A stretch of DNA of 64,000 nt from an uncultured Coriobacteriaceae bacterium (GTDB lineage Bacteria > Actinomycetota > Coriobacteriia > Coriobacteriales > Atopobiaceae). Location of the stretch: contig CADAUA010000013.1 of the NCBI GenBank assembly GCA_902791035.1, positions 1 through 64,000 of the forward strand, in the 5' to 3' direction. Below, piece after piece: positions 17,772 through 63,424 of this stretch. The notes under the pieces are model-generated. The model had not been told where the DNA came from. It worked only from the letters and a program-made list of their open reading frames with translations, and did no database searches. A program made the position numbers and the translations under genes. The number at the start of each line of letters is the position of its first letter. Position 1 is the first letter of the stretch.

Positions 17772-18082
17772 GGCACCTCGGTCCTGCTGTCACGGCACCT
17801 CGGTCCTGGCTGTCACGGCACCTCGGTCCTGCTGTCACGCCGGCGGCTGTTGCGGGCTGTCTGATTCCGCGCGGGAGTCGCAGGATGCGACATCTGCGCG
17901 AAAGCACCTGGCAGCAAGCATGCACTCTGCCGCCTATGTTCAGGAAAGCCGCAGATAACGGGCGGTTCGTCATGCAGAGTGTATGCTATCGATGGCAACG
18001 AAGGCCACGCTCTGGTGGTGGAGCGTGACAGCCAGAGCGTGACAGCAGGACCGAGGTGCCGTGACAGCAGGACCGAGGTGCC
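17772..18082. repeat. Nested inverted tandem repeats between convergent genes
   Basis: Three copies of a 22-23-bp unit containing CACCTCGGTCCTGCT (17772-17833) face two inverted copies containing AGCAGGACCGAGGTG (18039-18082). Enclosed is a foldback element with near-perfect 14-bp arms (17917-17930 and 17974-17987) around a 43-bp interior containing GCAGATAA. This fills the gap 17764-18116; no gene is seen there. Confidence 0.9.
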
Positions 18083-22462: not shown

Positions 22463-22785
22463 CAGGCGTCCCTCCCGCACTCGAAGGCGGCCATCTCGGC
22501 GCGGCAGACGTCCTGGAGGTGCTTCTCTGCCTCGGCGATGGCAGCGGGGTCGCCCTCACGCTTGGCGCGGCGAAGGGCGTTCATGGCCGAGGCGAAGTCC
22601 AGGTCGGCGGGGGAGGGGGCGTCGTCGGGATCCTGTCCATGGCCGGGGTCGGCTGCAACCCCCTGGGCGACATCGCCGGTCTTGTTGCCGTCGAAGGCCG
22701 TGCGGGAACCCGATGCCTCGATCTGCGCGCGGAACTCCTCTGCAAGCCTGCGGTCGCTCTCGTCCAGCTGATCGTCCCTGTCCAT
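22462..22785 (-). CDS. Small conserved-looking protein upstream of the DUF3516 helicase
   Basis: A 107-residue acidic, probably helical protein (MDRDDQLDESDRRLAEEFRA at the start, ending AEMAAFECGRDA) with no signal peptide or membrane segment. I do not recognise a family. The ATG at 22785 has AGGAGG four bases upstream and the stop overlaps the helicase start, so both belong to one operon; it may be a cofactor of that helicase. Longer upstream starts would run through the TCGAGTAGGTC array and are unlikely. Confidence 0.72.
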   Translation of the reverse strand: MDRDDQLDESDRRLAEEFRAQIEASGSRTAFDGNKTGDVAQGVAADPGHGQDPDDAPSPADLDFASAMNALRRAKREGDPAAIAEAEKHLQDVCRAEMAAFECGRDA

Positions 22786-22883
22786 GCGTCCTCCTGGTCT
22801 CGTGTTCAACTCGTCCATTCTACGACAGCGGCTATTTCGGTTAGCTGGTGGCCGTGTCGCGCTCGGAACTGACGTAACCGCTG

Positions 22884-23536
22884 TCGAGTAGGTCTGGCGC
22901 CTCTTATGGCTGTTGCGACGCGGTCTTGCGATGCCGCACCGCCCCTCGAGTAGGTCGGTCGGGCCGCATGGGGCATGAGTTCGTTTGCCGACTCCGACAG
23001 GAGCCCCCTCGAGTAGGTCATCGGCCGCCCTGGGAGCCCGGCTGGTGAGCCGCAGTTGCATAGGCATGTCGTCGAGTAGGTCAGTCGGCCTTGCCCGTTT
23101 CCTTGGCGAGGGACTTGAGGGGTTCCGGATTTCATCGTTGGAGGGGCCTGAGGAAGTCGCGAGGTGGGGGTGGTGACCTACTCGAGGGGCGCTCCGACCG
23201 GTTCGGCCAGTGCTGCCGTTGGACGGCGACCTACTCGACGGGGCTTCCGCCCGGGTTGGCTGCTGGTGCGGAGAGACTGTGACCTACTCGAGGGGCGCTC
23301 CGACCGAACAGGAAGACGGGGTGTCGGGAGCGCGACCTACTCGACGGGAGATGTGTCCGGGCTGGGCGCTGGGTCTGCGGGTTCTGACCTACTCGAGCCG
23401 CGGTGTGCGAGGAACTGGGGCGGGGATGCGGTCGAGTAGGTCGCTCGTCGGCTCCAACGGCGCCTGTCGTCGGTCAGGATGCGACTGCGGCCCCGCCCGT
23501 CGGCGCAATCGGACGAGAATGGGTGCCGAGTAGGTC
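22884..23536. repeat. Array of eleven TCGAGTAGGTC sites with helical spacing
   Basis: Forward sites begin at 22884, 22946, 23009 and 23072 (62, 63, 63 bp apart). Inverted sites GACCTACTCGA begin at 23175, 23228, 23281, 23334 and 23386 (53, 53, 53, 52 bp). Forward sites recur at 23432 and 23526 (94 bp). A further 10/11 match (23684) lies inside the GH3 coding region. Bases between sites differ, apart from frequent GGGG next to the motif. The array fills the 769-bp divergent gap 22786-23554, in which no gene is seen. Confidence 0.95.
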
Positions 23537-23554
23537 GTCCGGAGGAGGTACCGC

Positions 23555-26326
23555 ATGCCCCAGTCCAACATCACACGCCGAGAAGCCCTGCTGGTCGGCG
23601 CGGCCATAGCGAGCTCGGCCCTTGCAGCCTGCTCGGGTGATGCGGGAGGGGATGTGGTCGCGACCTCGGACGACGGGGCTCCCGACCTACTCGTGGCCTC
23701 CCTCGACCCAAAGTCAACTGCCGATTGGGATGCCCAGTACTACCAGCCGGCCTACGACTCCCCGGCGGAGGCCGCTGAGGCGGCCCGCGCTGTGGCCGAG
23801 GAGGTGGAGGAGGGCGGCATCGTCCTCCTCAAGAACGACGGCACCCTGCCGCTGCCCGCGGGCGCTGCGGTCTCGCTCCTAGGCCGCTCGTCGGTGGACA
23901 CGCTCTATGGCGGCCTGGGGGCTGGTGCGGTTCCGGCAGACACGCCCTGCACCTCCATCTACGACGGTCTGGTGGCGGCGGGCTTGGTGCCCGACCCCGC
24001 GATGCGCGACTGGATCGTCACCCACGCGGCGAACTACCCGCGCACCAGCGTGACCACCATGGACCTGCGGGATGTCACGACCTTCTACATAGGCGAGATC
24101 CCCTGGGAGGACTACCCCGAGGAGCTCAAGGCCCGCCTCGCCGGCACGCCTGCCGTCGTCGTGATCGGCCGCGAGAGCGGGGAGAGCTTCGACCTCTCGC
24201 GCGACCTGGGCCAGGAGCTGGCCGACCCGCGCTACGAGTCCTTCGTGCCCAACCGAGAGACCGCGCGCTACCAGCCTGGCCAGCACTCGCTCCAGCTCAG
24301 CGCCGAGGAGCGCGACCTCATAGCCGCGGCCAAGGCGGCCTGCGCCAGCGTGACCGTGCTCGTGAACTCGGGCACGCCCCTCGAGCTGGGCGAGCTCGTG
24401 GAGCCTGGCGGACCGCTCGAGGTCAACGCCATCCTGCACGTGGGCTTCCCAGGTGCGGTGGGCGCGAACGCGATCGGCCGGGTCCTCACAGGGGTGGTCG
24501 ACCCCTCCGGGCGCACCTGCGACACCTGGGCACGCGACGCGCTGGCCAACCCCACCACGGGCAGCCTGGGCGAGCATCCCTATACCGACGTTAGCGGCTT
24601 CTACCCCGGCAACGCCGACATGGGCGACGGTGCCTACTTCTGCGAGTACCGCGAGGGCATCTACATGGGCTACCGCTGGTACGAGACGGCGGGGGAGACG
24701 GGTGCCATAGACTATGACCAGGCAGTCGTGTGGCCCTTCGGCTTCGGCCTTTCGTACACGACCTTCTCGCGCGAGCTCCAGGACGTGACGCTTGCCAGCG
24801 ACAAGGACAGCGTGACCGCCCGTGTCCGCGTGACGAACACAGGCGACCGAGCCGGCCGCGATGTGGCGGAGGTCTACACGAGCTCCCCCTGGTTCGAGGG
24901 CGGCCTCGAGGTGCCGGCCTGCCGCCTGGCGGCCTTTGCCAAGACGGGGGAGCTCGCGCCGGGCGCATCCGCGGAGCTCGAACTGACTTGGCCGGTGGTC
25001 GACATGGCCTCCTGGGACGTCCGCACCGGTACCTGGGAGCTGGCGGCGGGTGCCCACGTGGTCAGCCTCCGCTCTGACGCCCATACCGTGGTGGACTCGC
25101 GCGAGCTCGAGCTCGAGGCACGCAGCTGGACCGAGGACCCGGCGACGGGCGCCGCCCTGGCCAACCGTTTCCCGGACCTGGACGAGTACCTCAAGGCTAA
25201 CTGCCAGCCGCTGGCCACGCGCACCGACCTCGCGGGGACCTTCCCCGCCGTGCCGGACGCGCGCACCGCGGCCGAGGTGGGGCTGGACCTGCAGCAGTAC
25301 GACGCGACCGCGCACGAGGACCCCGCGTCGACCATGCCTACGACCGGGGCGGACGGCATCGTCAACCTCATCGACCTGCGCGGACGCAGCCTGGACGACC
25401 CCCTCTGGGACCTCTTGCTGGACCGGCTGACTATGGGCGAGATGGTCAACGCCTGCTGCGTGGACCCGTCTGCGGCCATCGACTCCATCGGCAAGCCCGC
25501 CTGGCGCTGGACCGACAGCCCGGCCGGCCTCGAGACCCCCACCGACGGCGTGCCCCACTGCGCCTGGCCCAGCGAGTACCTGGTGGGCCAGACCTGGGAC
25601 GCCGACCTGGTGCGCCGCATGGGCGAGGCCGTGGGCGAGGAGGCCCTGGTGTCGGGCTACTTCGCCTGGTACGCGCCTGCCATGAACCTGCACCGGTCGC
25701 CCTTCTCGGCGCGCAACTACGAGTACTACTCGGAGGACCCGCAGCTCACGGGCGTGCTGGGGGCGGCACTGGCGGCGGGCTGCGCCTCGCGAGGGGTCGT
25801 AAGCATGTGCAAGCACCTGGGCGTGTACGACCAGGACTCCTGCCGTCGGCAGCACGTGCTCAACTGGTGTGGCGAGCAGGCCGTGCGTGAGATATACGTG
25901 CGGCCCTTCGAGCTGGTGGTCAAGTCGGCTGCGGCGCGCGAGGTGCCCATGATCGACGCCTCCACCGGCGAGCGGATCACGGCGACCCTGCCCCTCCTGG
26001 CCATCATGAGCTCCTACAACTTCCTGGGGGCTACCTGGGCGGGCGGCCGCCCCGAGCTCCAGACGGACCTCCTCCGCGGCGAGTGGGGCTTTGGCGGGGT
26101 GGTGGAGTCTGACTTCAGCGTGGACGACTACTACATGGACCACGACCAGGCCATCGCGGCAGGCACGGACATCCAGCTCTGTACGCCCGCCACGGGAACC
26201 TTCGCCAACCTGCGGAGCGCGACCACGGTGCGTGCCATGCGCCGTGCCATGCGGCGCTACCTCTACGTGGTGGTAAACTCCTGCGCTATGAACGGGATCG
26301 TGCCCACGGTGCGAGTGGAGGAGTAG
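23555..26326 (+). CDS. Tat-exported lipoprotein glycoside hydrolase family 3, domain-permuted
   Basis: A 923-residue glycosidase, probably beta-glucosidase-like. The N terminus has a twin-arginine signal (TRREALLVGAAIA, Arg8-Arg9) and a lipobox LAAC (Cys26), predicting an anchored protein outside the membrane. The GH3 C-terminal alpha/beta domain comes first (GGIVLLKNDGTLPLP near 90; WPFGFGLSYTTFS near 395), then a fibronectin-III-like domain. The catalytic barrel comes last, with RSPFSARNYEYYSEDP near 710 and the nucleophile region GVVESDFSVDDYY (Asp853). This order is the reverse of standard GH3 but known in some rumen enzymes. GGAGGAGG precedes the ATG. The upstream array of TCGAGTAGGTC sites probably controls it. 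Confidence 0.9.
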   Translation: MPQSNITRREALLVGAAIASSALAACSGDAGGDVVATSDDGAPDLLVASLDPKSTADWDAQYYQPAYDSPAEAAEAARAVAEEVEEGGIVLLKNDGTLPLPAGAAVSLLGRSSVDTLYGGLGAGAVPADTPCTSIYDGLVAAGLVPDPAMRDWIVTHAANYPRTSVTTMDLRDVTTFYIGEIPWEDYPEELKARLAGTPAVVVIGRESGESFDLSRDLGQELADPRYESFVPNRETARYQPGQHSLQLSAEERDLIAAAKAACASVTVLVNSGTPLELGELVEPGGPLEVNAILHVGFPGAVGANAIGRVLTGVVDPSGRTCDTWARDALANPTTGSLGEHPYTDVSGFYPGNADMGDGAYFCEYREGIYMGYRWYETAGETGAIDYDQAVVWPFGFGLSYTTFSRELQDVTLASDKDSVTARVRVTNTGDRAGRDVAEVYTSSPWFEGGLEVPACRLAAFAKTGELAPGASAELELTWPVVDMASWDVRTGTWELAAGAHVVSLRSDAHTVVDSRELELEARSWTEDPATGAALANRFPDLDEYLKANCQPLATRTDLAGTFPAVPDARTAAEVGLDLQQYDATAHEDPASTMPTTGADGIVNLIDLRGRSLDDPLWDLLLDRLTMGEMVNACCVDPSAAIDSIGKPAWRWTDSPAGLETPTDGVPHCAWPSEYLVGQTWDADLVRRMGEAVGEEALVSGYFAWYAPAMNLHRSPFSARNYEYYSEDPQLTGVLGAALAAGCASRGVVSMCKHLGVYDQDSCRRQHVLNWCGEQAVREIYVRPFELVVKSAAAREVPMIDASTGERITATLPLLAIMSSYNFLGATWAGGRPELQTDLLRGEWGFGGVVESDFSVDDYYMDHDQAIAAGTDIQLCTPATGTFANLRSATTVRAMRRAMRRYLYVVVNSCAMNGIVPTVRVEE

Positions 26327-55026: not shown

Positions 55027-55065
55027 GCGGGCTCCTCTCGTAGGTGCTGACAAGAGCCTACACCT

Positions 55066-55153
55066 GTCACGCCACCTCGGTCCTGCTGTCACGCCACCTC
55101 GGTCCTGCTGTCACGCCACCTCGGTCCTGCTGTCACGCCACCTCGGTCCTGCT
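55066..55153. repeat. Four identical tandem 22-bp repeats
   Basis: Four exact abutting copies of a 22-bp unit containing GTCACGCCACCTCGG (starts 55066, 55088, 55110, 55132) lie in the divergent gap between the Gph and AspS genes. The unit differs at one base from that at 17772-17833. The 336-bp gap has no gene. Confidence 0.95.
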
Positions 55154-55362
55154 GACACGTTCCTGCCTGTCACGTTCTCACGTCGGCACATCTCGGCTCC
55201 GCGCACTTATCGCGCACTTGTCCGTTCGCCGACCGTATGGGCCCGCTCGCGTAGTACAATTCCGAACGCTTGCCACGGGGCGCTGTCTACGCCCCCGCCG
55301 GCAACTCACGGCAAGTCGCCCGCAACGGCACGGGGCGGCTGTGACACAGAAAGGTTATGCCC

Positions 55363-57883: not shown

Positions 57884-59377
57884 CTACAGGCGCCTCTCGG
57901 CGCGGCGGCGGATGACGGCGTACTCGCTCACGAGCAGCACCGCCAGCACCGCCATGGTTACCAGGCTGGAGAGCACGGCGCCCGCCAGCTGCGAGAAGTT
58001 GATGAGCAGCATGGCCACTGGCACGGAGAAGGCGAAGGCGATCAGGTAGAGGCGGGTGACGGCCTGCTGCTCGCGCAGCACGGTGATGATCTGGTAGAGG
58101 AAGTCGATCACCGCGCACACGCCGCCCGTGGCCACCATCACGTAGACGAGCGGGCGGAACTGCTCGAAGTCTATGCCATAGAGGAAGCTCATGACGGGGA
58201 TGCCGACCCAGCCCATCACGAGTGCCATGACCACGGTGATGGCCGCGATCACGGCGATCATGGCGATGATGAGCAGGTCAAAGCGCTTGTGCTTCTCGGG
58301 GTCGGCCCAGATGCTTGCCAGTCGGACCAGCTGGGGCTTGTAGATGATGGCAGCGGTCATGAGGATGGCGTGCGCCGGGAAGTACATGGCGTTGTAGTAG
58401 AGCTGGTTGTCGTAGGAGAGGGCGCCCTCCATGGCGAACTTGGGCACGGAGTCGATGAGGTTGTAGAGGAAGAGGGCCGCGAAGAGCGGGAAGCACTGGA
58501 CGAAGAGCTCGCGCACGCCGCGCAGGCTCCAGGGGAAGCTCCTGTCCGTCTCGAAGATGGCCAGCGGGATGGTGAGAAGGACGGCCGAGGCGATGCCGCC
58601 TATGGCCATGGCGTAGCTCGACACCACGAGGTTGCGCGTTAGGAAGAGGGCCACGGTAAAGGCCACGAAGCCGAGCGCGCACCGCACCGCCTGGGAGAGC
58701 CCGGCCAGGTAGAGCTTGTCCTTCTGTTGCAGGCGGCCCTCGTAGACGTCGCCCAGGGCGTCCGTGGCGCGGAAGACCAGGACGGCCATGACGATGTGGG
58801 TCATGTCGGCCGCGTAGCCGCGGATGCGGCAGTAGAGAAGGCCGACTGCCAGCATGACCACGCAGGTGATCACGCGGTTTATCTGGTAGTCGTAGAAGGA
58901 CTGCATCTCGTCGAGGTCGCTCACCTGATAGGTGCGCACACCGTAGTTGCCCAGGAAGAGCAGGAGCGTGCCCACCACCATGGCCATGGAGAAGAGGCCG
59001 GCCTGCTCGGCGCCCACGAACTGGGTGCACACGATGGTGAGGAGGGGGAAGAGCCCGCCCCAGCAGGCCTGGCCTATGGTGTTGCACACGTAGTCGCGCG
59101 TGGTGCGGTGGGGGAGGTACTGCTCGGATTGGGCGGCGACGGAGCCCGAGAAGACCGCGGAGATCAGGCGGTCCCACCAGTGGTTGATGGTGCGCGAGAG
59201 CCAGCTGGGCTGCTTGGCCTCGCCGGGGCGGGCGTTCTTGTTTGCACGTGCGCGGGCGCGGCGGCGGGGCTCGGCTGCGTTCTCGCGATCGGAGTAGCGG
59301 GGGGTGCGGCGCGGGGTGGGCGAGGGTGCGTCCTCGGGCCCCTCTTCGCGTCTTGTTGGCCTTCTATCGAGCGGCAT
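57884..59377 (-). CDS. Polysaccharide flippase (MOP/MATE superfamily, Wzx-like)
   Basis: A 497-residue membrane protein with about twelve to fourteen hydrophobic segments after a basic, Arg-rich cytoplasmic N-terminal region (residues 1-60). TIGQACWGGLFPLLTIVCTQFVGAEQAGLFSMAMVVGTLLLFLGNYGVRTYQVSD fits the Wzx/MurJ-like MOP superfamily. It probably flips lipid-linked saccharides for a wall or capsule polymer. GAGGAG precedes the ATG at 59377. It is isolated from other polysaccharide genes in the window. Confidence 0.8.
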   Translation of the reverse strand: MPLDRRPTRREEGPEDAPSPTPRRTPRYSDRENAAEPRRRARARANKNARPGEAKQPSWLSRTINHWWDRLISAVFSGSVAAQSEQYLPHRTTRDYVCNTIGQACWGGLFPLLTIVCTQFVGAEQAGLFSMAMVVGTLLLFLGNYGVRTYQVSDLDEMQSFYDYQINRVITCVVMLAVGLLYCRIRGYAADMTHIVMAVLVFRATDALGDVYEGRLQQKDKLYLAGLSQAVRCALGFVAFTVALFLTRNLVVSSYAMAIGGIASAVLLTIPLAIFETDRSFPWSLRGVRELFVQCFPLFAALFLYNLIDSVPKFAMEGALSYDNQLYYNAMYFPAHAILMTAAIIYKPQLVRLASIWADPEKHKRFDLLIIAMIAVIAAITVVMALVMGWVGIPVMSFLYGIDFEQFRPLVYVMVATGGVCAVIDFLYQIITVLREQQAVTRLYLIAFAFSVPVAMLLINFSQLAGAVLSSLVTMAVLAVLLVSEYAVIRRRAERRL

Positions 59378-59488
59378 GGGCACGTCTCCTCTGCCGGGTT
59401 TGTCTACAAGGCATGATTGTACCGTCCTGTTGGCCGAAGGGTCGCCAACAGGGGTGGCCCCTATTTGCGGGCATCGCACGCAGGGCGC

Positions 59489-59600
59489 AACATGCGACAT
59501 CTGTGTGTAGGCTCGAGACAGATAGCATACACTCTGCGGCAATGAACCAGAAAAACAGCAGGTAATGACCAATCAGTTGCACAGAGTGTATGTTATAGAA
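59489..59600. repeat. Foldback element homologous to the one at 17885-17998
   Basis: Arms TAGCATACACTCTG (59523-59536) and CAGAGTGTATGTTA (59582-59595) enclose a 45-bp interior containing CAGCAGGTAATGA. ATGCGACATCTG lies 25 bp before the left arm, as it does before the element near 17917. The divergent gap 59378-59773 holds this and the ppc leader, and no gene. Confidence 0.85.
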
Positions 59601-59773: not shown

Positions 59774-62473
59774 GTGGCAGACCAGCCACTTGCGGTAACG
59801 TCGCAGCCTGCCAATGTGCTGGCTGCTGTCGAGATCCCGGAGACCCTGCGCGACAACCTGGAGCTCTTCCTCATGCTGGTGCGCCGCGTCCTCTCCGAGT
59901 CCGACCCCGGCCTCCTCGAGACCTTCGACGACATGCTGGGCGACGCTATCCGCATCACCTACGGCCAGCTGGACGAGGCCGCGCTCGATGCAGCCTTTGA
60001 CGACTTCATGTCCAAGATCCAAGCTCAGCCGGTCGAGCGCGCGACCCTCCTCATGCGTGCCTTTGTGACCTACTTCCACTTGGCAAACATCTGCGAGGAG
60101 AACTACCGCGTGGCGTCGTTGCGCGAGCGCGAGTCCCAGGTGCCGGTGAGCGCGGACGAGGATCCCATAAACGACCTCACCGTGGCCTACCACCAGCTGG
60201 TGGACGAGTGCGGTCGGGGCAAGGCCATAGCCCTCTTGAACCGCCTGGAGTTCCGTCCGGTCTTTACCGCCCATCCCACTGAGGCGCGCCGCAAGGCCAC
60301 CGAGGGCAAGATCCGCCGCATCTCGGTCCTGCTGGAGGAGCGCCCGCGCCTGGGCGGCGTAGCCCTGGCCGAGAACGAGCGCAAGATGCTCCAGGAGATC
60401 GATGCCCTTATCCGCACCAGCCCCATTGCGCGCAAGAAGCCGACCCCCGTGGAGGAGGCCGACACCATCATCAACATCTTCGACTCCACGCTCTTCCGCA
60501 TGGTGCCCGAGGTCTACCGACGCTTCGACGACTGGGAGCTGGGCGAGAAGGCCGGCTCCGTCCCGCCCATGTGTCCGGCCTTCTTCCACCCCGGCAGCTG
60601 GATCGGCTCCGACCGCGACGGCAACCCCAACGTGACCGCCAAGGTGAGCCGTCAGGTGAGCGAGAAGTTCCGTGTCCACATGCTGGAGACCCTGGCCGAT
60701 GCAACTCGCCGCATCGGCAAGAATCTGACGCTGGACGCCGAGTACACAATCCCCTCCGACGAGCTCATGAACCTCTGGAGCCATCAGGTGGAGATGAGCG
60801 AGAAGATCACGAGCGAGGCCCAGGAGATAAGCACCTCGGAGCTGCACCGTGCCGTCATGATCGTGATCTCCGAGCGTCTGCGGGCCACCATAGTGCGCAC
60901 GGCGGACATCATGTACGCGAATGCCGACGCCTACATCGCCGACCTCAAGGTGGTGCAGCGCTCGCTTGCCAAGGGCGGGGCGCCCCGAACGGCCTACGGC
61001 CCCGTGCAGACCCTCATCTGGCAGGCGGAGACCTTTGGCTTCCACATGGTGGAGATGGAGTTCCGGCAGCACTCGCTGGTGCACGCCCGCGCCCTCGAGG
61101 ACATCCGCAGGCACGGCCGCCACGGAGAGCTCGCCCCCATGACCCGCGAGGTCTTGGACACCTTCCGCGCCATCGGCTACATCCAGCGCAAGAACGGCGT
61201 CAAGGCCGCGCGGCGATACATCATCTCCTTTACCAAGTCCGCACAGGACATCGCCAACGTCTACGAGCTGGCCCGCTTGGCCTTCGCCCACGCCACAGAC
61301 GTGCCCGTGCTCGACGTGATTCCCCTCTTCGAGCAGGTGGAGGACCTGGAGAATGCCGTCGACACCCTGAACGAGGTCATCAAGCTGCCGGACGTCCAGC
61401 GTCGCCTGGCCGAGACCGGCCGGCGCATGGAGGTCATGCTGGGCTACTCGGACTCCTCCAAGGATGCCGGTCCCACCTCGGCCACCCTGGTGCTGCACGA
61501 GGCGCAGGCCCGCATAGCCCAGTGGGCCGAGGAGAACAACATCGACCTCGTGCTCATGCACGGCCGCGGCGGCGCCGTGGGCCGCGGCGGCGGCCCCGCC
61601 AACCGCGCGGTCCTGGCCCAGCCCAAGGGGTCCGTCAACTGCGTCTTCAAGCTCACAGAGCAGGGCGAGGTCATCTTTGCTCGCTACGGCGACCCCACCC
61701 TGGCTCGTCGCCACGTGGAGTCCGTGGCCGGCGCCACCCTCCTCCAGTCCGCCCCCTCCGTGGAGTGGAAGAACACCGAGACCACCCAGTGCTACGCCGA
61801 CCTGGCCCACCAGCTTGATGCGGCCTCCCGCGAGCGCTACCTGGACCTCCTCCACACCGAGGGCTTTGCCGAGTGGTTCTCCACCGTGACGCCCCTCACG
61901 GAGATCGGCCTCATGCCCATAGGGTCACGGCCCGCCAAGCGCGGCCTGGGGGCCAAGTCCTTGGACGACCTGCGCACCATCCCTTGGATCTTCTCCTGGT
62001 CGCAGGCCCGTACGAACCTCGCCGCCTGGTATGGCCTGGGCACCGCCTGCGAGACCGTGGGGGACTTGGACCTTCTCCGCGAGGCCTACCACGAGTGGCC
62101 GCTCTTCACGACCTTCATCGACAATATAGAGATGTCCCTCTCTAAGACGGACGAGCGCATAGCCAAGCTCTATCTGTCCCTGGGTGACAGGCCCGACCTC
62201 GACCAGAAGGTCCTGGACGAGATGGCCCTCACCCGCAAGTGGGTTCTGGCCATCGTGGGCGACGCGTGGCCCCTGGAGCACCGTCGGGTGCTGGGCCCCG
62301 TCATCCGCATGCGCTTGCCCTTCGTGAACGTTCTTTCCGTCACGCAGGCCTTGGCCCTGCGCCGCATGCGTCAGGGCGGTGAGTCGATGAGCCCGGAGGA
62401 GCGCGACAAGTACACCTATCTCATCCTCTGCACCGTTTCCGGAGTCGCCGCGGGCCTGCAGAACACAGGGTGA
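59774..62473 (+). CDS. ppc: Phosphoenolpyruvate carboxylase
   Basis: An 899-residue enzyme that carboxylates PEP to oxaloacetate, feeding the reductive branch to succinate and amino acids. Motifs: VFTAHPTEARRKATEGKIRRI (catalytic His), GSDRDGNPNVTAKVS, GYSDSSKDAGPTSATLVLHEAQ, LMHGRGGAVGRGGGPANRAVL and the C-terminal LQNTG. GTG at 59774 has TTGGAGG six bases upstream. Its GC-rich 3' hairpin is at 62514. Confidence 0.96.
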   Translation: MADQPLAVTSQPANVLAAVEIPETLRDNLELFLMLVRRVLSESDPGLLETFDDMLGDAIRITYGQLDEAALDAAFDDFMSKIQAQPVERATLLMRAFVTYFHLANICEENYRVASLRERESQVPVSADEDPINDLTVAYHQLVDECGRGKAIALLNRLEFRPVFTAHPTEARRKATEGKIRRISVLLEERPRLGGVALAENERKMLQEIDALIRTSPIARKKPTPVEEADTIINIFDSTLFRMVPEVYRRFDDWELGEKAGSVPPMCPAFFHPGSWIGSDRDGNPNVTAKVSRQVSEKFRVHMLETLADATRRIGKNLTLDAEYTIPSDELMNLWSHQVEMSEKITSEAQEISTSELHRAVMIVISERLRATIVRTADIMYANADAYIADLKVVQRSLAKGGAPRTAYGPVQTLIWQAETFGFHMVEMEFRQHSLVHARALEDIRRHGRHGELAPMTREVLDTFRAIGYIQRKNGVKAARRYIISFTKSAQDIANVYELARLAFAHATDVPVLDVIPLFEQVEDLENAVDTLNEVIKLPDVQRRLAETGRRMEVMLGYSDSSKDAGPTSATLVLHEAQARIAQWAEENNIDLVLMHGRGGAVGRGGGPANRAVLAQPKGSVNCVFKLTEQGEVIFARYGDPTLARRHVESVAGATLLQSAPSVEWKNTETTQCYADLAHQLDAASRERYLDLLHTEGFAEWFSTVTPLTEIGLMPIGSRPAKRGLGAKSLDDLRTIPWIFSWSQARTNLAAWYGLGTACETVGDLDLLREAYHEWPLFTTFIDNIEMSLSKTDERIAKLYLSLGDRPDLDQKVLDEMALTRKWVLAIVGDAWPLEHRRVLGPVIRMRLPFVNVLSVTQALALRRMRQGGESMSPEERDKYTYLILCTVSGVAAGLQNTG

Positions 62474-62582: not shown

Positions 62583-62835
62583 TCGAGTAGGCAGGTGCCT
62601 CGCGACGGGGAGGAGCCACTACGGCGCATACCCCCTCGAGTAGGTAAGTGGCTCCCTGCGGGGGAGAGGCGTGTGCGCGGTTTGGCCGCCGAGTAGGTAG
62701 CTCCCGTGCGGGAGACTCACCCCGAGAGGCTCCCAAGTGGCATGCCGTGTGCCTACTCGAGAGGGTTCCTGCTGCATTCCGGTCCCTATGGCTGCCCCGC
62801 GTCGGTTGCCGGGTCACGACAACCTGCCTACTCGA
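62583..62835. repeat. Second array of TCGAGTAGG sites
   Basis: Forward sites begin at 62583, 62636 and 62689, exactly 53 bp apart. Inverted sites TGCCTACTCGA begin at 62750 and 62825. The base after GGT or GGC is A here, against C in the first array. The last site overlaps the TetR stop codon. Gap 62474-62827 has no gene. Confidence 0.93.
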
Positions 62836-63424
62836 CGCCCCTTCTGGACACGCCCGCCTCACCTGCGTTGCAGAAGGCGCCTATGAGGTCCTGCATGTCG
62901 CGCCACTCTTGGTCCTTCTTCCAGCCGAGGGCGGAGTTGACACTGAAGGAGCCAAAGATCATGAAGCGAACGAGCAACTCGGCCTGGTGCCTGGGGAGGC
63001 CTGTCCTCTCCATGAGTTCAGGCACGTGATGTGGCCCCTCGGTCTGGTAGAGACGCTCGACCAAGTAGTCGGTCACGGAGGAATCCTTGAAGAGTGGGAG
63101 GTACCTGGGGTTGGACGAGACGCGCTGACACATGGGGAGCCGCACCAGTCCTGCGGTCTCGCCCTGGCACACCTCGTCCGTAGCGCCCTGCGTTCCCGGC
63201 ACGTCGTCCTCCGCGAGCGCCTCGTCGAGGATCGCGTCCAGTACCTCCGCCAGGTTCTTGTAGTGCAGGTAGAAGGTGGCGCGCGTGATTTCCGCCCTGC
63301 GGCACACGTCTGTCACGGTCACCTTGTCGAAGCGCTTCTCGCCTATGACCTCGAGCAGGGCGTCCTTGATGGCACGCTGCGTGTAGAGGGTCCTGCGGTC
63401 GGTCTTTCGCGTCTGGTCTGCCAA
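62828..63424 (-). CDS. TetR-family regulator divergent from a GH3 gene
   Basis: A 198-residue regulator. Its helix-turn-helix reads KVTVTDVCRRAEITRATFYL followed by HYKNLAEVLDAILDEAL. A C-terminal ligand domain follows (WKKDQEWRDMQDLIGAF near the end). It is divergent from a membrane-anchored GH3 with a palindrome over the promoter, so it likely controls glycosidase expression. Its stop codon lies inside a site of the second TCGAGTAGG array. No clear ribosome site was seen; the ATG at 63424 is the first of the frame. Confidence 0.85.
   Translation of the reverse strand: MADQTRKTDRRTLYTQRAIKDALLEVIGEKRFDKVTVTDVCRRAEITRATFYLHYKNLAEVLDAILDEALAEDDVPGTQGATDEVCQGETAGLVRLPMCQRVSSNPRYLPLFKDSSVTDYLVERLYQTEGPHHVPELMERTGLPRHQAELLVRFMIFGSFSVNSALGWKKDQEWRDMQDLIGAFCNAGEAGVSRRGVE

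Follow-up and report, generated by a model that had tools for sequence, protein, structure and literature searches.

Helix-Phased Arrays of a Short Oriented Word, Probably Protein-Binding, in One Chromosome Segment of an Atopobiaceae Genome

Results

An Array Upstream of a GH3 Lipoprotein Gene

The window analyzed here, 64,000 nucleotides in length, corresponds to positions 1–64000 of contig C13 in an assembly of 2.69 Mb and 37 contigs. A gap in it separates two divergent genes, one on the minus strand starting near 22785 and the other, encoding a GH3 lipoprotein, at 23555. This gap houses an array (A10) made up of 10 exact copies of the word TCGAGTAGGTC and two copies with one mismatch, located between 22884 and 23694, the last of them within the GH3 coding region:

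22786..23554, no strand: 769-bp gap between divergent genes, housing A10
22884..22894, plus strand: A10 site 1, exact TCGAGTAGGTC
22946..22956, plus strand: A10 site 2, exact TCGAGTAGGTC, 62 bp from site 1
23009..23019, plus strand: A10 site 3, exact TCGAGTAGGTC, 63 bp from site 2
23072..23082, plus strand: A10 site 4, exact TCGAGTAGGTC, 63 bp from site 3
23175..23185, minus strand: A10 site 5, exact TCGAGTAGGTC, opening the reverse block
23228..23238, minus strand: A10 site 6, exact TCGAGTAGGTC, 53 bp from site 5
23281..23291, minus strand: A10 site 7, exact TCGAGTAGGTC, 53 bp from site 6
23334..23344, minus strand: A10 site 8, exact TCGAGTAGGTC, 53 bp from site 7
23386..23396, minus strand: A10 site 9, exact TCGAGTAGGTC, 52 bp from site 8
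23432..23442, plus strand: A10 site 10, exact TCGAGTAGGTC, outside the converging blocks
23526..23536, plus strand: A10 site 11, one mismatch (CCGAGTAGGTC), 94 bp from site 10
23684..23694, minus strand: A10 site 12, one mismatch (ACGAGTAGGTC), in the GH3 coding region
23555..26326, plus strand: GH3 lipoprotein gene, right of A10, with Pfam GH3 N- and C-terminal domains

The spacings were 62, 63, and 63 bp in the forward block, 103–105 bp across the center, 53, 53, 53, and 52 bp in the reverse block, and then 94 bp; measured between 9-mer starts, the center spans 105 bp, that is, 10 turns. The word, the coordinates and the spacings were all recovered as an earlier note, made on the letters alone, had given them. 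The match at 23684, which the same note had located inside the coding region, was found in the GH3 frame on the minus strand with one mismatch and may be a chance match. When up to two mismatches were allowed, TCGAGTAGGTC had 69 matches in the whole window, compared with 14.9 expected, a number reached by none of 100 shuffles. The copies at 23175 and 23281 belong to a part of A10 that was duplicated internally long ago (73% over 122 bp), so a few spacings of 53 bp cannot count as independent.

Ten Arrays in One Segment

The array described in the earlier note was hence real, but the description had missed a second array in the window (A9, at 62583–62835, with the word TCGAGTAGGCA/TA), as well as the fact that A10 is one of 10 arrays in a single chromosome segment. 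The features around A9 were as follows:

59774..62473, plus strand: ppc (PEP carboxylase), left of A9; reading frame and product recognized by eye; synteny anchor
62583..62591, plus strand: A9 site 1, TCGAGTAGGCA
62636..62644, plus strand: A9 site 2, TCGAGTAGGTA, 53 bp from site 1
62689..62697, plus strand: A9 site 3, CCGAGTAGGTA, 53 bp from site 2
62752..62760, minus strand: A9 site 4, TCGAGTAGGCA, 63 bp from site 3
62827..62835, minus strand: A9 site 5, TCGAGTAGGCA, 75 bp from site 4
62828..63424, minus strand: TetR-type regulator (Pfam TetR_N), right of A9, converging with ppc

A one-mismatch scan of contigs C9 and C13 defined the whole set, which comprised 10 arrays and 74 sites, with five to 12 sites per gap. 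Arrays A1 to A7 were located on C9 at 116.5, 129.3, 140.2, 149.3, 163.8, 167.6, and 184.6 kb, and A10, A9, and A8 on C13 at 22.9, 62.6, and 66.4 kb. A genome-wide exact search for pairs of CGAGTAGG lying 46–76 bp apart (start to start) returned 40 pairs, all of them on C9 and C13, while the control for this search gave one match.

The end of C13 carries tetR, GH3 and array A8, and that of C9 carries feoB, feoA, feoA, array A7 and a 770-aa gene. Olsenella sp. kh2p3 (L122) has, in order, a ppc fragment, tetR, GH3, an array, feoA, feoA and feoB, and by this synteny C13 and C9 most likely face each other with their right ends. The 10 arrays thus most likely occupy one segment of about 115 kb plus a small gap, the junction being placed by gene order rather than by sequence across it. 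The 770-aa gene (C9:185259–187571), situated between A8 and A7, had no Pfam match and was absent from the kh2p3 locus; its C-terminal part looked TerD-like by eye.

The Site, Its Helical Phase and Its Order

The logo obtained from the 74 sites was [TC]CGAGTAGG[TC][AC], which is non-palindromic. The word TCGAGTAGGTC is true for A10, but its TC ending is specific to that array, a point that the earlier note had missed; the others carry CA, TA or mixtures. A weak element, GGxCGR, was present upstream at −14 to −9, with CGR at −11 in 29 of the 74 sites, compared with 0–10 at other offsets. Occasionally, in arrays A2 and A3, copies of the word followed one another in tandem at 11 or 12 bp.

The gaps, ranging from 41 to 125 bp, fell on multiples of 10.4–10.5 bp. 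Consecutive same-strand gaps longer than 20 bp (n = 47) gave R = 0.87 at 10.4 bp (p ~3e-16), and opposite-strand gaps (n = 13) gave R = 0.78 at 10.5 bp. The observed phase value was not reached in any of 20,000 random draws, and the phase also exceeded chance when the 21 distinct gap lengths were taken alone. After removal of the 51–54 and 61–64 gap classes, R was 0.77 for the 17 gaps left. The same-face phasing proposed for A10 consequently extends to all 10 arrays and holds without the 53 and 63 classes. The note had named random scatter without phase as the contrary outcome; exact-word pairs and triples, searched genome-wide and in 140 relatives, showed the opposite.

Furthermore, a forward block was followed by a reverse block in every one of the 10 arrays, so that the words converge on the middle, and sites outside these converging blocks were found only in A6 and A10.

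DNA Between the Words

Once the words were masked, no sequence common to the arrays was detected, except in the A8–A9 pair and within A10; unmasked, A8 and A9 were 77% alike over 101 bp. The flanks of paired sites were no more similar to each other than shuffled ones and were not complementary, and the 42 nt from GTAG onward folded no better than shuffled sequence (mean z −0.18); on the upstream side the mean z was 0.07. An explanation by RNA pairing or hairpins was discarded on these grounds, the flanks not being complementary and a fold signal being absent. Kept words, a kept phase and free DNA between them are the pattern predicted for a protein-binding array.

Converging blocks around a center would also be expected of recombination or attachment sites, in which arm-type sites are aimed at a crossover core, as in a phage attP. 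The genes between the arrays do differ between species, as with the 770-aa gene between A8 and A7 that kh2p3 lacks. The centers, however, had no common core sequence save in A8 and A9, and their lengths varied from 41 to 115 bp, which makes this explanation highly improbable.

Other Repeat Families in the Genome

Further array families emerged when 1.10 Mb of the genome was scanned for 9-mer clusters in an unbiased way. The second family, with the word TAGGGTGCA, comprised about 16 arrays in a strict − + − + order with gaps of 48/35 bp (each close to four turns when the reference point is taken near TAG) and unique spacers. It was present on nine contigs (C1, C2, C4, C5, C7, C8, C12, C14, and C15), for example at 185.5, 187.7, and 202.0 kb of C5 and at 16.1, 114.5, and 145.2 kb of C1; its pairs were absent from C9 and C13, and its exact pattern was not found in the other 139 family genomes. 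The third family, CGAAC..GGTTAGTAGAG (CGAACTTCAGGTTAGTAGAG), showed a ++|−− order around a promoter-like core, CATAATCGCAGGTAGACG, at C2:13.9 kb and C21:17.0 kb. A core similar to CATAATCGCAGGTAGACG, flanked by TTGCAGGTG palindromes, was seen on C11 and C27. The first and third families have an AGTAG core in common, preceded by a CGAA-like element at a distance of one turn, and the second has a similar, weaker C-x-RRA element. We conjecture that the three families correspond to related proteins with different words. Additionally, a single array at C3:156.5 kb (L238:6882–7094), composed of CGTACTGAC/GTCAGTACG inverted pairs 47–48 bp apart, had the geometry of the second family with another word.

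Tandem repeats of 22 bp, CTGTCACGCcacctcggtcctg and GTGACA..CTCCGACCCC, were located in the window at 55064–55150 and 17772–18074 and also on C5, C15, C23, and C24; they are REP-like, since elsewhere they flank Y1-transposase genes. Repeats of 51 bp with two small palindromes (CGCTTAG..CTAAGCG and TTCCC..GGGAA) formed long runs at C2:11.4 kb, C10:81–89 kb, C22:16.1 kb, C23:4.3 kb, and C11:77.6 kb. Inverted repeats of GCGGCAGAC (51/66 bp) were found at the start of C9 (67–241) and in the last kilobase of C4, and their presence at both contig ends suggests that the left end of C9 and the right end of C4 are adjacent.

In such a genome, full of intergenic repeats of the 22-bp and 51-bp kind, several of them beside Y1-transposase genes, the arrays might themselves be a selfish or neutral REP/BIME-like family of short repeats that was duplicated locally with no benefit to the cell. 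The A8/A9 copies and the duplication inside A10 would suit this origin, and the alternating order of the second family resembles that of BIMEs. Against it, the sites lacked a hairpin and a spacer in common, the word was absent within 1.5 kb of five Y1-transposase genes, and neutral spread leaves the phase at 42, 73, 84, 94, 105, 115, and 125 bp unexplained. We consider such an origin clearly unlikely.

Neighboring Genes

The neighbors of the arrays, several of them named by eye, included argD and an MFS transporter, ABC transporters and a MatE protein, ligA, DUF2130, an HtrA-like protease, flavodoxin-like and DUF438-like genes, ferritin, feoAB, ppc, tetR, and GH3. These housekeeping genes were unrelated to one another, and their layouts included converging, diverging and co-directional ones. 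The link to GH3 made in the earlier note was hence not general, the other nine arrays being flanked by unrelated genes. Within the window, a 562-aa reading frame without a Pfam match lies beside ppc (57884–59572, minus strand). An aspS leader RNA (Rfam RF02930; 55272–55355, plus strand) immediately preceding the gene at 55357 was the only Rfam match in the window.

Some of these gaps would be natural places for operators, and several arrays do lie in promoter-bearing ones (feoAAB, ferritin, ABC transporters, GH3). A transcription regulator bound there, for instance a head-to-tail winged-helix protein, could control the adjacent genes. The site looks bipartite, with its strong half and its weak half some 12 bp from each other, and a repeat of 11–12 bp was seen for some sites; this is also the layout for OmpR/PhoB-type proteins. 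A winged-helix regulator gene (C9:151348–152028) is located about 1.7 kb from A4, and the third word family encloses a promoter-like core. Nevertheless, two arrays, A1 (C9:116532) and A9 (window 62583), lie between converging gene ends, where a promoter is not expected. The neighbors share no common pathway, and a regulon limited to one 115-kb segment would be odd. Operator arrays of this kind are, in our estimate, somewhat unlikely.

Position in the Chromosome

The genes dnaA and parB were found on C2, at 77.4 and 84.7 kb, respectively, while the arrays were on C9 and C13 only. In relatives whose genomes are finished or almost so, a few tens of kb usually separate ppc from ligA, and the two lie about 0.25–0.65 Mb from dnaA; by synteny, this places the segment along one arm and not at the origin. 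The iteron-like replication site considered in the earlier note was not borne out by these positions, and no initiator gene was recognized near the arrays, whose neighbors were judged by eye. An origin or centromere role was likewise rejected, dnaA and parB being on another contig. The GC skew across the segment was weak and mixed, and no convincing dif-like site was found on C9 or C13; a location at the terminus thus seems unlikely, the segment being mid-arm by synteny.

Arrays in Relatives

Exact-word pairs and looser GAGTAG triples were searched in 140 family genomes, isolated or coding matches being set aside. Word-arrays were present in the genome studied here and in Olsenella sp. kh2p3 only and, with just one other genome of the 140 carrying them, the function of the arrays is not general in the family. 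In kh2p3 the array lies on a contig of 7.2 kb. The GH3 encoded there is 91% identical to its counterpart in this genome, whereas LigA, Ppc and the helicase of kh2p3 are 81–83% identical and its DnaA 69%. Given this difference, the fragment was apparently acquired from a donor related closely to this genus, as judged by the identities alone; kh2p3 also carries a separate complete ppc besides the ppc fragment. In its GH3–feoA gap the phased sites were kept and the intervening DNA was barely alignable, while the feoA promoter aligned well. A different inverted array in kh2p3, of CGTTGTTACCGG with partly repeated spacers (L333:3923–4280), was hairpin-like and is perhaps that species' own version.

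The GH3 homologs in other family genomes had no comparable array in their flanks, and a search of plasmids gave no match. A scan of 85,000 species produced many unrelated matches among those listed, and the ones opened on viral contigs proved to be repeats of a CRISPR-like or coding kind. In the literature, the word was found only in papers on unrelated topics, and arrays of such a kind in Atopobiaceae were not found.

Discussion

The 10 gaps described here are, with high probability, same-face protein-binding arrays, to judge from the anatomy of the sites. The cooperative binding array suggested in the earlier note is well supported by the phase across the 10 arrays, although protein binding, cooperativity and bridging are each something that we infer. 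A looping region, which the note also offered, may be formed as well, and a role in segregation or chromosome organization is conceivable. A single DNA-binding protein with sequence specificity would recognize the words, each site pairing a strong core, [TC]CGAGTAGG[TC][AC], with a less strong CGR element that precedes it by about one helical turn. From two facing blocks on the same face of the helix, the bound molecules would touch along that face, and the protein might fold or bridge the DNA of each gap.

Such a protein may act on the region of about 115 kb as a unit, by bridging, anchoring or compacting it. This extension is suggested by the presence of 10 gaps within some 115 kb and of none elsewhere in the exact-word pair search. 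On balance, we hold only tentatively, at slightly less than even chances, that same-face arrays of one predicted protein act on the chromosome region as a unit, rather than serving an ordinary regulator of each neighboring gene. The confinement could also stem from local duplication, as the likeness of A8 and A9 illustrates, and the syntenic genes of relatives lie off the origin and off the expected terminus, where known region-marking systems act.

A broader and rather unlikely proposal is a bacterial address system. One protein would mark about 115 kb of one arm through 10 converging phased arrays, related proteins with other words (CCNNTAGGGTGCA; CGAAC..GGTTAGTAGAG) would use their own geometry elsewhere in the genome, and the words would change fast between species. 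To our knowledge, region-marking site systems are few (matS, ram, parS), and we know of no precedent for converging helix-phased arrays confined to one stretch off the origin and terminus. If the protein bridges the arrays, the region would be a sequence-defined chromosome domain, directly testable by removal. With words replaced so quickly from species to species, the system would also lend itself well to the study of how a DNA-binding protein and its sites co-evolve.

Among known systems, MatP/matS of Escherichia coli shares with the arrays the use of one word, at many places in one chromosome region, independently of neighboring genes. The matS site is palindromic, 13 bp long and occurs singly at scattered places in the terminus, whereas the word here is non-palindromic, is organized in phased arrays and lies in a region whose homolog in relatives is found away from the expected terminus. 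RacA/ram of Bacillus subtilis resembles the arrays in that short, GC-rich sites are clustered within a restricted part of the chromosome. The ram sites, however, are inverted repeats surrounding the origin, while the origin markers of this genome are on another contig.

The REP/BIME elements with their RAYT partners are likewise intergenic and species-specific; the second family alternates in orientation as they do, and the word contains GTAG. In contrast, the arrays have no palindrome or hairpin and their spacers are unrelated. Five Y1_Tnp genes were found as candidate RAYT-like partners, with CGAGTAGG within about 1.5 kb of none of them. A RAYT/REP link for the word-arrays was rejected, these transposases being flanked by other repeats instead.

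Plasmid iterons, ParB/parS and ParR/parC also have repeated protein-binding words in helix phase, but here there are 10 separate chromosomal arrays with gaps of five to six turns, and parB and dnaA are elsewhere. The DnaA-box clusters (datA, DARS, DBC) are intergenic and have an oriented 9-bp word; the word described here is not a DnaA box, and its arrays are symmetric and limited to one segment. In agreement with the earlier note, the arrays are not a CRISPR, having 11-bp words in both orientations and gaps of 41–125 bp, as opposed to direct repeats of at least 23 bp with constant spacers. None of the tested families fits the arrays, which do have the feature of a cooperative array, that is, oriented words in helical phase with unconstrained DNA between them.
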